20,866 bases of DNA, from the IMG/VR virus record IMGVR_UViG_3300038451_000172, positions 1 to 20,866 of that record. One strand, 5' to 3'. Below are positions 15,335 to 18,620 of the stretch, in pieces; positions within the stretch are counted from its first letter, which is position 1; every line of letters starts with the position of its first letter. Source of the DNA: a virus. The position numbers and the translations under genes are program-made. The notes beneath the pieces were generated by a model. That model saw nothing but the letters and a program-made list of their open reading frames with translations, was not told where the DNA came from and did not search any database.

Positions 15335-15514
15335 TTAACTCGAAATTAGTCTATTAGTTGTGTTTTTGACCCGGAGGATGGGCACTTCCCGGGTATTGAA
15401 ACGCTTCTTGCAACTCACACATTCGCGGCGCCGGTGCAACACATGACGCTTTATTCGGTACCGCGAATCCACGACTTTTGTGGGACCGCCGCACTGAGGA
15501 CATGGCAGTTTCAT
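15335..15514 (-). CDS. NrdR-like zinc-ribbon mini-protein
   Basis: This 59-residue ORF starts at ATG 15514 with an AAAGGGA ribosome-binding site just upstream, and ends at TAA 15335. The product begins MKLPCPQCGG, has DSRYRIKRHVLHRRR, then ECVSCKKRFNTRE. This matches the N-terminal zinc ribbon of NrdR (CPxC, DSR, RRRECxxCxxRFxT), the repressor of ribonucleotide reductase genes, but the ATP-cone domain is absent. In phages such stand-alone ribbons may act as DNA-binding regulators or binders of host proteins. It sits alone between the 171-aa gene (42-base gap) and an uncertain region. Confidence 0.85.
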   Translation of the reverse strand: MKLPCPQCGGPTKVVDSRYRIKRHVLHRRRECVSCKKRFNTREVPILRVKNTTNRLISS

Positions 15515-16072: not shown

Positions 16073-16413
16073 GGCTTCTTCACTTGCCCGCCTCTCGGCT
16101 TACCCGCGAGGGCGCGAATACATGGTGCAATTCTGTATCCCGTCCAACCTGCAAGCGTATCGCATAGTTCCGCCGCTTTCTCCCGCGCATCGGACCGTGC
16201 CTCACGCAGCAAAAATGCCAACGAATCTATATGGTCCAATAAGCATCCATTCTGCTCCAGCCATTCTTTTGCCTGCTGTTCCTCCGTCAGCCCCACGCGA
16301 TGCGCGGCGAGGGCTTCTGCCGCAATCGCATAAATCTGCCGTAATTTCGAGAACGCTTCAAAATCATTCTCAGCTAATCTCCGAATTTGCGATAACGCTT
16401 CAATGAGATTCAT
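16069..16413 (-). CDS. Hypothetical helical protein
   Basis: The start at ATG 16413 overlaps the TGA of the upstream micro-gene as ATGA, and an AAAGGCGG lies just before it. It gives 114 residues. The sequence is almost entirely helical (MNLIEALSQIRRLAENDFEA, then LTEEQQAKEWLEQNG), with a basic tail (GKPRGGQVKKP). It includes a short EWLEQNG...LLDHIDSLAFLLREA segment that resembles other small phage early proteins, but no family can be named. Its own stop overlaps the start of the 171-aa gene, so three small genes are translationally chained here. Confidence 0.7.
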   Translation of the reverse strand: MNLIEALSQIRRLAENDFEAFSKLRQIYAIAAEALAAHRVGLTEEQQAKEWLEQNGCLLDHIDSLAFLLREARSDAREKAAELCDTLAGWTGYRIAPCIRALAGKPRGGQVKKP

Positions 16414-16550
16414 GGCTTGCCGCCTTTCTCGCACTTCACGCTAACGAATGTTCCACAATTCGCGCAGCGCCATTTTCCACTCCATCCTTTTGATGACCAC
16501 GGCTATTTGCGTAAAAGTACGCCGTGCCAACACTTCGCTCGTTTAGCCAT
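16410..16550 (-). pseudogene. Zinc-ribbon micro-gene interrupted by an in-frame amber codon
   Basis: An ATG at 16550 with a perfect GAGGAG seven bases upstream (16558-16563) opens a 47-codon frame ending in TGA at 16412-16410, which overlaps the next start as ATGA. Codon 16 (16505-16503) is TAG. Without it the product would be one small zinc ribbon: KCWHG before the stop and WRCANCGTF after it, a plausible C-x-H / C-x2-C pair. The strong start signal and the coupled end argue the whole frame is a real gene. TAG serves as an ordinary stop in the neighbours at 623 and 3598, so genome-wide amber reassignment is unlikely. A mutation, assembly error or suppression remains possible. Confidence 0.6.
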
Positions 16551-16557
16551 TGCTTGG

Positions 16558-16563
16558 CTCCTC
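16558..16563 (-). promoter_or_regulatory. Strong Shine-Dalgarno of the amber-split micro-gene
   Basis: GAGGAG on the minus strand lies seven bases before the ATG at 16550 and 11 bases after the stop of the nuclease gene. It is the main evidence that the interrupted frame is a genuine gene. Confidence 0.65.
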
Positions 16564-16574
16564 AGCCCGCTGGC

Positions 16575-16922
16575 TCACAACTCTTCTTCGCGCAGCCCCT
16601 TTGCTCCCCATCCGTGCAACCAGATGCGTCCGCCTGAATTAATCCAACCTAGCCTGTGGGGACTCTCAAATATCTTCCTTTTGCGTGCTCCGAAATTGGC
16701 CCATGACGTAGTTTGGATGAGAATGATTCCGCCATATTGATGCATCATGGGGCCTTCTTTCCAGCTCTTGATTGTCCGATAGGCCAGAATGTCAGCAAAG
16801 CCGAAACAATCCTGCGTCACGAATTTCCCCGGAATCGGCAGTCGCCGCTCAACGATTTGACAGGCATAACCCAATTTGGCCAGATAATCGAGACTCAACT
16901 GCATGGGCGATTTTCTTCTCAT
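16575..16922 (-). CDS. PD-(D/E)XK-like phage nuclease (Q-x-T variant)
   Basis: This 115-residue protein starts at ATG 16922, overlapping the stop of the zinc-ribbon gene. The order of motifs fits a small restriction-endonuclease-like fold: a helix then a basic strand (IVERRLP), VTQDCFGFADILAY with Asp38 and Asp44, then IILIQTTSWANFGARKRKI with Gln70-Thr71-Thr72, Arg80 and Lys83. Related phage proteins carry QVTS in place of the usual E-x-K, so this may be an active variant or a non-cutting binder. It forms a tight three-gene unit with the zinc ribbon and the 259-aa protein next to the repeat array. Family assignment is from motif recognition only. Confidence 0.7.
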   Translation of the reverse strand: MRRKSPMQLSLDYLAKLGYACQIVERRLPIPGKFVTQDCFGFADILAYRTIKSWKEGPMMHQYGGIILIQTTSWANFGARKRKIFESPHRLGWINSGGRIWLHGWGAKGLREEEL

Positions 16923-17100: not shown

Positions 17101-17880
17101 CTACGCGGCTTTTTCTTTTTTGCTTGGAACTGCCTTTAGACCGGGTATTTCGATCTCGCAGTCTCTGACCAGATATTTCCCGCACTCGAACGCTTTCGCG
17201 CTGCCGAGGCCGACAATCATCCCCATCGCCACGACTTGTCTGAAATCGTCCGTCTTCAAATTGCTGGGAAGAAGGCGATACTCGAAAGCGAAGCGAGTTC
17301 CGACCTCTGCGCATTCTGAATTGTGAATGATTGATTTCATGCCCTGCGGACCACCGACGCGGCCACGAAACTCACGAAAATGTGTCTTTGCCGGTTTCTT
17401 TCCGCTTGCGTCACGAAGATAGATGCGCTCAGGATGAGATGGATCAACCAGGCTGATTCCTATCGCGCGAACGTTTCCAGCTTCCGCGAAGTCACCCTTT
17501 GAGCCTTTGTGCTCAATGAAAATCTTGAGCCGGGAAGCTGCCTGTTTGTAATGCGCCTTAATCATCCAGTCGCCAATCCACGGACCATTTTCGTCACGCC
17601 GGATAATATTCACGCCGTATGTCACCTTTTCGCTGAGTTCTCCGAGTTCGGGAGTCGCATCGCGCTCGCCGATCTCTTCCTTCTGCATCCGTTCGACCGC
17701 AGCATCGAGTTCCTTTTCGGAAGTGATGCCGAGGTGGAACTTGGCGAATGCGCGTAAGCCTTCCTTGTCCGCTGGCACACCGCCAACAATCTCGGTTGCC
17801 AGCTCGCATTCCACACGAATCACCGCCGTTTTTTCTTCGTAGGACTCCCTCAGTTCCTTCAAACTAAACTTAACTTTCAT
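17101..17880 (-). CDS. Conserved-looking phage protein with RAMP/Cas7-like glycine-rich loop
   Basis: The start at ATG 17880 follows AAGGAG at 17891-17896; the open frame beyond it only reads through the repeat array. The 259-residue product has an early GGVPADKEGLRAFAKFH segment (33-48), YGVNIIRRDENGPWIGDWMI (88-107) followed by a helix, a GRVGGPQGMKSII segment (173-185), GTRFAFEYRLL (194-204), and a C-terminal GLGSAKAFECGKYLV (224-238). This order recalls, from memory, a phage family ending in a GLGQWRN..G.GRF loop, and the last motif resembles the glycine-rich loop of RAMP proteins such as Cas7. No catalytic residues stand out. It directly follows the pentamer array, so it may bind it. The RAMP link is a hypothesis. 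Confidence 0.7.
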   Translation of the reverse strand: MKVKFSLKELRESYEEKTAVIRVECELATEIVGGVPADKEGLRAFAKFHLGITSEKELDAAVERMQKEEIGERDATPELGELSEKVTYGVNIIRRDENGPWIGDWMIKAHYKQAASRLKIFIEHKGSKGDFAEAGNVRAIGISLVDPSHPERIYLRDASGKKPAKTHFREFRGRVGGPQGMKSIIHNSECAEVGTRFAFEYRLLPSNLKTDDFRQVVAMGMIVGLGSAKAFECGKYLVRDCEIEIPGLKAVPSKKEKAA

Positions 17881-17979
17881 GCGCCTTTTTCTCCTTTTCG
17901 TTTTGCCGCTAAGTTCGATCACATATCGTTGTGCCGCTACGCGAAGTGCCGCACAGCACAGTTCCATCGGGTGATGCCA

Positions 17980-18019
17980 CTGGGTCCGGTCAAGTGCCGT
18001 GAAATAAGGTGAAGCCGCT
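17980..18019 (-). repeat. 40-bp direct repeat within array, copy 1
   Basis: Identical to 18261-18300 at 38 of 40 positions. Both cover one six-pentamer segment, its two free bases and the flanking anchor bases. The two mismatches are in the pentamer CTTAT versus ACTAT. Shows that segments can be copied to a distant place in the array. Confidence 0.9.
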
Positions 18020-18123
18020 GCGTTATATCGAGTCCTATCTAGTCCGGTCAAGCCGCTCCGCACAGTAACGTAGAGTTGTGTTTTGTCGGGCCGCTCAGTG
18101 CTGTTTCATCGAGCCGAGTCATG

Positions 18124-18237
18124 TCATGTTTCGCCGCTCTGGCACGTCGCGTGGAATCATGTCATGTTTCGCCGCTCTGGCACGTCGCGTGGAATCATGG
18201 GCTGTTTCGCCGCTCTGGCACGTCGCGTGGAATCATG
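18124..18237 (-). repeat. Three tandem 38-bp array units
   Basis: Three adjacent copies with an exact 38-base period, differing mainly at one pentamer (ATGAC versus AGCCC). They are three near-identical n=6-type units and suggest recent tandem growth of the array. Because 38 is not a multiple of three, the unit is read in all frames, which argues against protein coding. Confidence 0.92.
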
Positions 18238-18260
18238 GGCTGTCGGGTCCTATCTCGCCG

Positions 18261-18300
18261 CTGGGTCCGGTCAAGTGCCGTGAAATAGTGTGAAGCCGCT
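18261..18300 (-). repeat. 40-bp direct repeat within array, copy 2
   Basis: Second copy of the unit at 17980-18019 (38 of 40 identical), separated by seven other array units. Confidence 0.9.
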
Positions 18301-18356
18301 CCGTGTTGCCACATCGGGTAAAGTAGAGTCGGGCCGCGGAGTTTCATGACGCTTCG

Positions 18357-18620
18357 TCACGCCGCTTTGTTGAGTTTCTTCGATGCGAGTTTCTTGTTCG
18401 TCGCGTTTTTCGGGGCTGGCAAAAAGGGCACGTAAGCAGTGCCATACAAGCGGCCAGCAACCCGAGCTGCGTTGATTGCATGGCCGGCACCTTGGAGACT
18501 CTGCCCGCGCATCTTTGCAAGAGCTTTCTCGATTTCCGGCTTATGCCTTCCGGTCAGGAAAGCCTTTCTGTCCGCCTTGATCTGCTCCATCACTTCTGAG
18601 ATTTCCGTGATTACGTTCAT
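18357..18620 (-). CDS. Small hypothetical basic helical protein upstream of the array
   Basis: This 87-residue protein starts at ATG 18620 behind a clear AAAAAGGAG ribosome-binding site. The N-terminal half is helical and charged (VITEISEVMEQIKADRKAF, IEKALAKMRGQ). A GAGHAINAARVAGRLYGTA segment follows, and the C-terminus is Lys/Ala-rich (KKLASKKLNKAA), suggesting nucleic-acid contact. The last Ala-Ala codons supply the first AGCGGC anchor of the array. The gene is the first of the array cassette and sits behind a candidate divergent promoter. No family is recognised; a role with the array RNA or DNA is possible but unproven. Confidence 0.75.
   Translation of the reverse strand: MNVITEISEVMEQIKADRKAFLTGRHKPEIEKALAKMRGQSLQGAGHAINAARVAGRLYGTAYVPFLPAPKNATNKKLASKKLNKAA

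Follow-up and report, generated by a model that had tools for sequence, protein, structure and literature searches.

What occupies a 462-bp gap between two phage genes, and which molecule might read it? The gap (17905-18366, minus strand) lies in the viral record IMGVR_UViG_3300038451_000172, whose whole analysed stretch of 20,866 nucleotides we call the window; it also carries terminase, portal and other phage genes. The original prediction, made from the letters of the sequence, described six-base anchors separated by n pentamers of the form NNNAY plus two free bases, and proposed that the five-base step might suit a repeating protein subunit. Below we ask whether this grammar is real, which gene it accompanies, and what kind of guide, if any, it could encode.

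The grammar of the array

An exact recount bore out the arithmetic. The minus strand, read from 18366 to 17905, contains 13 anchors (11 AGCGGC, CGCGGC at 18338 and AGTGGC at 17981), and the spacing between successive anchors equals 5n+2 in 12/12 cases, with n from 4 to 8 and n=4 at both ends. The pentamers end in a pyrimidine in 72/72 cases and carry A at position 4 in 60/72. The remaining three bases had been described as varying freely, which holds for positions 1 and 2, where no base exceeds 36%, and not for position 3, where 46% are G.

Comparison with shuffled sequence, which the original prediction had named as a check, came out clearly in its favour: under a five-state phase model the array scored 102.5 vs 10.1±3.6 (maximum 17.6) for 20 dinucleotide-matched shuffles, and coding controls scored like the shuffles. 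With redundant units removed, the array still scored 77.4 vs a maximum of 19.9 in 200 shuffles, and the final pyrimidine was present in 54/54 pentamers. The best 240-nt segment in the entire 20.9 kb lies in the array (phase score 58, runner-up 22). Fixed-phase AY counts and Fourier power were rejected as detectors, as they miss arrays because the phase breaks at every unit. Elsewhere in the window, a weaker five-base periodicity surrounds a 140-nt gap at 16400-16620 on the minus strand (24 vs a shuffle maximum of 13.8); it could be composition or a decayed guide.

Across 24 arrays, predicted RNA folding resembled that of shuffles (mean z 0.2), and we therefore see no hidden structured element; an Rfam search of nine sources returned neither a hammerhead nor any other family. 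Table 1 lists the features of the locus.

Table 1. Features of the array and its neighbours, in window coordinates.
Feature	Position	Strand	Basis or remark
Vipr-like RAMP protein, 259 aa, ~29 kDa	17101..17880	-	glycine-rich loop GLGSAKAFECGKY near end; predicted Cas7/Csm3 fold
Probable ribosome-binding site GGAG	17891..17894	-	sequence; 10 nt ahead of the RAMP gene's ATG
Putative guide array, 12 abutting units	17905..18366	-	GGC-NN-(NAY-NN)n-AGC, bounded by AGC/GGC junctions
Last unit, n=4, with the final AGC/GGC junction	17905..17938	-	directly before the next gene's ribosome-binding site
Three related units, 48 + 38 + 38 nt	18139..18262	-	common guide tail AT-TC-GC-GT-AG
First unit, anchor to anchor, n=4	18339..18366	-	sequence
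87-aa protein, directly upstream of the array	18357..18620	-	homologue at the same place in locus L177 (E 1e-4)

The adjacent gene is predicted to encode a RAMP protein

The borders of the array are tightly fitted to the flanking genes: the first anchor overlaps the last codons of the upstream gene, whose stop codon falls within the first pentamer (..AAA GCG GCG TGA), and at the other end 24 nt separate the array from the ATG of the downstream gene. Given these borders (the upstream gene's last codons on one side, GGAG and the ATG on the other), the array is probably co-transcribed with the downstream gene from the minus strand. We found no sigma-70-like promoter near the array.

The 259-aa product of the downstream gene has no match in Pfam, PHROG, NCBIfam or PADLOC. 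AlphaFold2 produced a model with a pLDDT of 79 from a 19-sequence alignment, in which the glycines of the G-loop are invariant. The solved structures nearest to this model are Cas7-family RAMPs, chiefly Csm3 (best Foldseek E 1.3e-7), and a further structural neighbour is a viral protein annotated as a Cas-associated RAMP. The structure comparison VIA with Csm3/Cas7 gave a Z of 11.7 over 170 residues at 4.8 Å, for the predicted model. Members of the family also give weak PADLOC matches to Csm3, Cas6, Csm4 and type IV Cas7, over the loop. Based on the model, we refer to the protein as a predicted Cas7/Csm3-fold RAMP.

Other small genes may belong to the locus. The L177 homologue of the 87-aa protein groups with small genes found upstream of the arrays in L172, L173 and L174, making the 87-aa protein a candidate accessory protein by sequence. 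In 15 sister loci, a conserved protein of about 185-200 aa is encoded on the upstream side of the RAMP gene, in most cases immediately ahead of the array (for example L145:2425-2976 and L160:405-971, with 13 further loci); it has no convincing Pfam or PHROG match, is absent from the window, and is likewise a candidate accessory gene. Separately, a short unlisted ORF at ~15350-15514 of the window (minus strand; MKLPCPQCGGPTKVVDSRYRIKHHVLHRRRECVSCKKRFNTREVPIL...) appears to resemble an NrdR-type zinc ribbon.

The array travels with the gene

A direct protein scan of IMG/VR with the window's RAMP protein found no match. A single clear relative, WWT39994 of Microcystis phage Mae-JY09 (E 2e-5), emerged when phages were searched with tblastn. 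Directly downstream of WWT39994 there is a phased-pentamer array, scoring 44.5 vs 7.2±2.5. Through this protein we reached 27 IMG/VR loci, and a profile built from 18 of the 27 matches the window protein with an E of 4e-8. A phased 240-nt block adjoins the gene in 21/23 homologous loci, with scores of 22-48 vs locus medians of 5-10; the two exceptions, L127 and L143, are both cut by a contig end. Among the more distant homologues tested, arrays are present in L154, L159, L160 and L161, L158 has none, and L157 is truncated. The side of the gene varies, with the array lying downstream of it in L176, L179, L122, L125 and L129. L173 and L175 proved to be parts of one 108-kb contig, in which a single RAMP gene is flanked on each side by arrays of this grammar. 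Related phages with the same gap and no phased pentamers had been named in advance as the outcome that would speak against the grammar; what these relatives carry favours it.

The association also emerged in the reverse direction. When IMG/VR DNA was scanned blindly with the pattern GCGGC(NNNAY)6NNNGCGGC, using no protein, it picked out eight stretches, spread over seven contigs. Every stretch is an array of this kind (scores 25-93), and 7/7 contigs encode a RAMP homologue beside an array, the nearest 58% identical, so that the search of phage and metagenome contigs suggested by the original prediction led each time to this gene family. By our own estimate the pattern has a chance rate of ~3.6e-12 per base, or <1 in 1e11 bases, the size of the collection not being known. 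A looser scan of IMG/VR for AGCGGC spacing was discarded: it returned mostly unrelated DNA, and its high-scoring stretches in L065 and L023 resemble tandem repeats of 15 and 21 nt.

Two scans of contigs from 84,980 named species found no relative, though the family is common in IMG/VR; either the family is truly viral or the short scan patterns, or masking, account for the absence. No relative was found on plasmids.

A proposed reading of the array as abutting guide units

The statement that no known class has such a grammar has been overtaken by the description in 2026 of VIPR (Viral Interference Programmable Repeat) in a preprint (PMC13142463). According to its main text, phage RAMP proteins form filaments on RNAs in which GGY triads alternate with guide NN dinucleotides, and these filaments recognise DNA; phages employ such systems for silencing the DNA of rivals. 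The RNAs contain 9-16 YNNGG repeats in which GGY does not vary; base pairing with DNA falls to the NN dinucleotides, and at every step one base of the target is passed over (PMC13142463). The same text distinguishes seven types and several array designs, words the repeat rule as 'GGY/NN or a related consensus', and mentions 'staggered arrays with overlapping vrRNAs' (PMC13142463). As a positive control, Escherichia phage SUSP1 and its relatives yielded GG-Y-NN arrays with the same phase program, and the structures nearest to a SUSP1-type Vipr model are of the kind found for the window's RAMP protein (Z 9.4). The window's RAMP protein is collinear with the SUSP1 Vipr through the G-loop, but the match is weak (hhalign E 0.0011, probability 20%). 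Taking the class as the main text of the preprint describes it, we consider it highly probable that the array is a VIPR-type guide array of a phage. The guide would then contribute two bases per step (NN) rather than the three originally supposed.

This model also accounts for the anchors. Among 365 phase breaks in 24 arrays, 240 skip exactly two positions and the other kinds number 36, 37 and 52 under a symmetric model; the junction model used for counting units favours the rule by construction, and 240/365 is the unbiased figure. If each step consists of a constant triad plus NN, a two-position skip corresponds to two triads meeting without an NN. On that reading the anchor is not a separate element: it comprises two constant triads, AGC at the end of one unit and GGC at the start of the next, and the 5n+2 spacing with its 'two free bases' arises because units of the form GGC-NN-(NAY-NN)n-AGC abut with no NN between them. 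Unit length is 5(n+1)+3, that is, 28, 38, 43 or 48 nt for n=4-8.

The junction reads AGC/GGC in the window, mostly C/GAC in sister arrays, and GTC/GGY in L160. Nine arrays of the window's type gave triad frequencies of G.47 at the first position, A.79 and G.17 at the second, and C.78 and T.20 at the third (.98 for the two pyrimidines together), with near-uniform base usage at both N positions. The window's triads are mostly G-A-Y and depart from a strict GGY consensus; L160, which falls within the window's protein family, carries a GG-type array, and the GAY and GGY dialects are therefore linked.

Guide-like turnover and target searches

The contents of the arrays change quickly beside conserved genes. 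In the pairs of related phages L134/L137 and, near the gene, L145/L148, flanking genes are 87-92% identical and the arrays are largely unalignable; between L129 and L133, one unit sits at a different place. Such turnover next to conserved flanks is as expected of guides, judging from sequence comparison. Within the window's array, three 38-nt stretches are near-identical and one unit is found again 281 bp away, and the units at 18139..18262 appear by their sequence to be the product of duplication at the level of the unit. The mismatches between homologous arrays, sorted by phase, are so few and so redundant that they do not by themselves prove NN hypervariability.

Exact target scans of IMG/VR allowing one skipped nucleotide per step gave 0 matches for the longest unit of the window (18 bases) and 0 matches for one sister unit (20 bases), and in local target searches no skip rule yielded a clear surplus of matches. 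Of the codon phases, positions 1-2 suit the pooled NN composition best, ahead of 2-3 and 3-1, in agreement with the wobble-skip described for VIPR (PMC13142463); this is a weak hint, because composition alone can produce much of the fit.

A proposed mechanism and its alternatives

We envisage that the array is transcribed from the minus strand, probably together with the RAMP gene 3′ of it, and that Vipr-like subunits polymerise along the RNA at five-nucleotide intervals. Each subunit would grip a constant triad, mostly G-A-Y, with GGC and AGC at the unit ends, and by analogy with VIPR the two bases between triads would be presented for pairing with DNA. Each unit would be a separate guide of n+1 dinucleotides (10-18 guide bases), and the abutting of units triad to triad would generate both the AGC/GGC 'anchor' and the 5n+2 spacing. 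The complex may then bind the DNA of a rival phage or satellite by skipped-base pairing and repress its target. The original idea of a RAMP-like repeating subunit on an RNA with guide content agrees very well with the predicted RAMP fold of the next gene's product and with the grammar's travelling with that gene, and loses its triplet guide; its centromere and leader ideas are not needed. The least certain step is the release of each unit as an RNA of its own, as opposed to several being read together.

On that last point, longer overlapping vrRNAs of the same VIPR-type system could instead span several units, with AGC/GGC serving as a spacer inside a longer guide. SUSP1 vrRNAs have 9-16 repeats and staggered overlapping vrRNAs are mentioned in the main text of PMC13142463, whereas the window's units have only 4-8 internal triads; an n=4 unit holds 10 guide bases under the NN model, which is little for specificity. 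Against this, units are duplicated and moved as wholes and the junction is kept at every boundary, both of which suggest that the unit is the module. We regard longer guides as a realistic possibility that falls short of being probable.

Readings without guides fare much worse. The RAMP protein might bind its own 5′ untranslated RNA and repress itself, the array being a regulatory leader, and in the window the array does make up the gene's 5′ untranslated region and is followed immediately by the ribosome-binding site. We nevertheless think this very unlikely: in the five loci named above the array is 3′ of the gene, the contig of L173 and L175 has arrays at both sides, and the content changes while the grammar stays, which a pure leader would not need. 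Five base pairs are about half a helical turn and a replication-initiator-like gene lies 1.2 kb upstream, so that one could also imagine a site on double-stranded DNA (a packaging site, an origin or a centromere) to which an operon-encoded protein binds at each half turn. It seems to us extremely improbable, given that the phase jumps are not helical, the contents are hypervariable, it is the strand of the gene that carries the constrained pyrimidine in the loci read, and the adjacent conserved protein is predicted to have an RNA-binding type of fold. Chance, or the decay of tandem repeats, might be invoked for an array in which some units are duplicated; with a non-redundant score of 77 vs a shuffle maximum of 20, and a grammar-only scan that led to seven further contigs, each encoding a member of this gene family, these tests refute it and we give it practically no weight.

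Comparison with known systems

The preferred reading, a VIPR-type guide array, can be set against other systems built on short repeated units. The backbone of CRISPR type III (Csm3/Cas7) is the nearest solved fold and is also a RAMP filament on a guide RNA, but it has a six-nucleotide step, identical repeats with spacers and many cas genes, and the present grammar goes without these. The near-identical 20-50 nt repeats and near-constant spacers that define a CRISPR array are absent from the gap: only the 6-nt junction recurs throughout, and unit lengths step by five, unlike near-constant CRISPR spacers. TIGR-Tas systems are compact and phage-borne; their arrays consist of short guide units whose repeat edges are fixed, and they use a Nop5-like protein. 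The compactness is shared; here the protein is a predicted RAMP and unit lengths vary by five, and Pfam matched no Nop-like domain in the ten neighbouring proteins tested. TRAP, a protein ring, reads triplets two or three bases apart, with free spacers that are not known to carry guide content; no TRAP-like protein was found at the locus.

The closest likeness is to VIPR type II of SUSP1, which shares a phage RAMP protein with a glycine-rich loop and a similar predicted fold, and intergenic five-nucleotide steps in which a constant triad ending in a pyrimidine is followed by two hypervariable bases. As the main text of PMC13142463 describes it, SUSP1 has GGY triads, ~15 repeats per vrRNA, and separate vrRNAs that each end in an invariant structured 3′ tail, whereas the window has mostly GAY and short units of 5-9 NN set head to tail with AGC/GGC junctions. 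Reading through the array, we saw no 3′ tail: units of 4-8 internal triads abut directly. Tail-less units therefore exclude type II and not VIPR, because that text gives the tail for type II and not for all types. Neither the GAY dialect nor the packing of abutting units is described in the main text of PMC13142463. It is conceivable, and we offer it as a tentative proposal, that the loci form a distinct VIPR type, undescribed in that text, with tail-less guides of 5-9 NN arranged head to tail and marked only by the triad-triad junction. If so, a minimal RAMP effector would be served by a single RNA with at least a dozen programmable guides.

Multiplexed short guides beside a single ~29 kDa protein would be of practical interest, and a short DNA pattern suffices to find such systems without a protein search. 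The array design marks units by sequence alone, so they can be counted, compared and decoded from sequence. VIPR has been proposed as the form from which CRISPR effectors descend, and the code by which it reads DNA is non-contiguous; from this clade comes a second dialect of that code, clearly written and with GAY triads instead of GGY.
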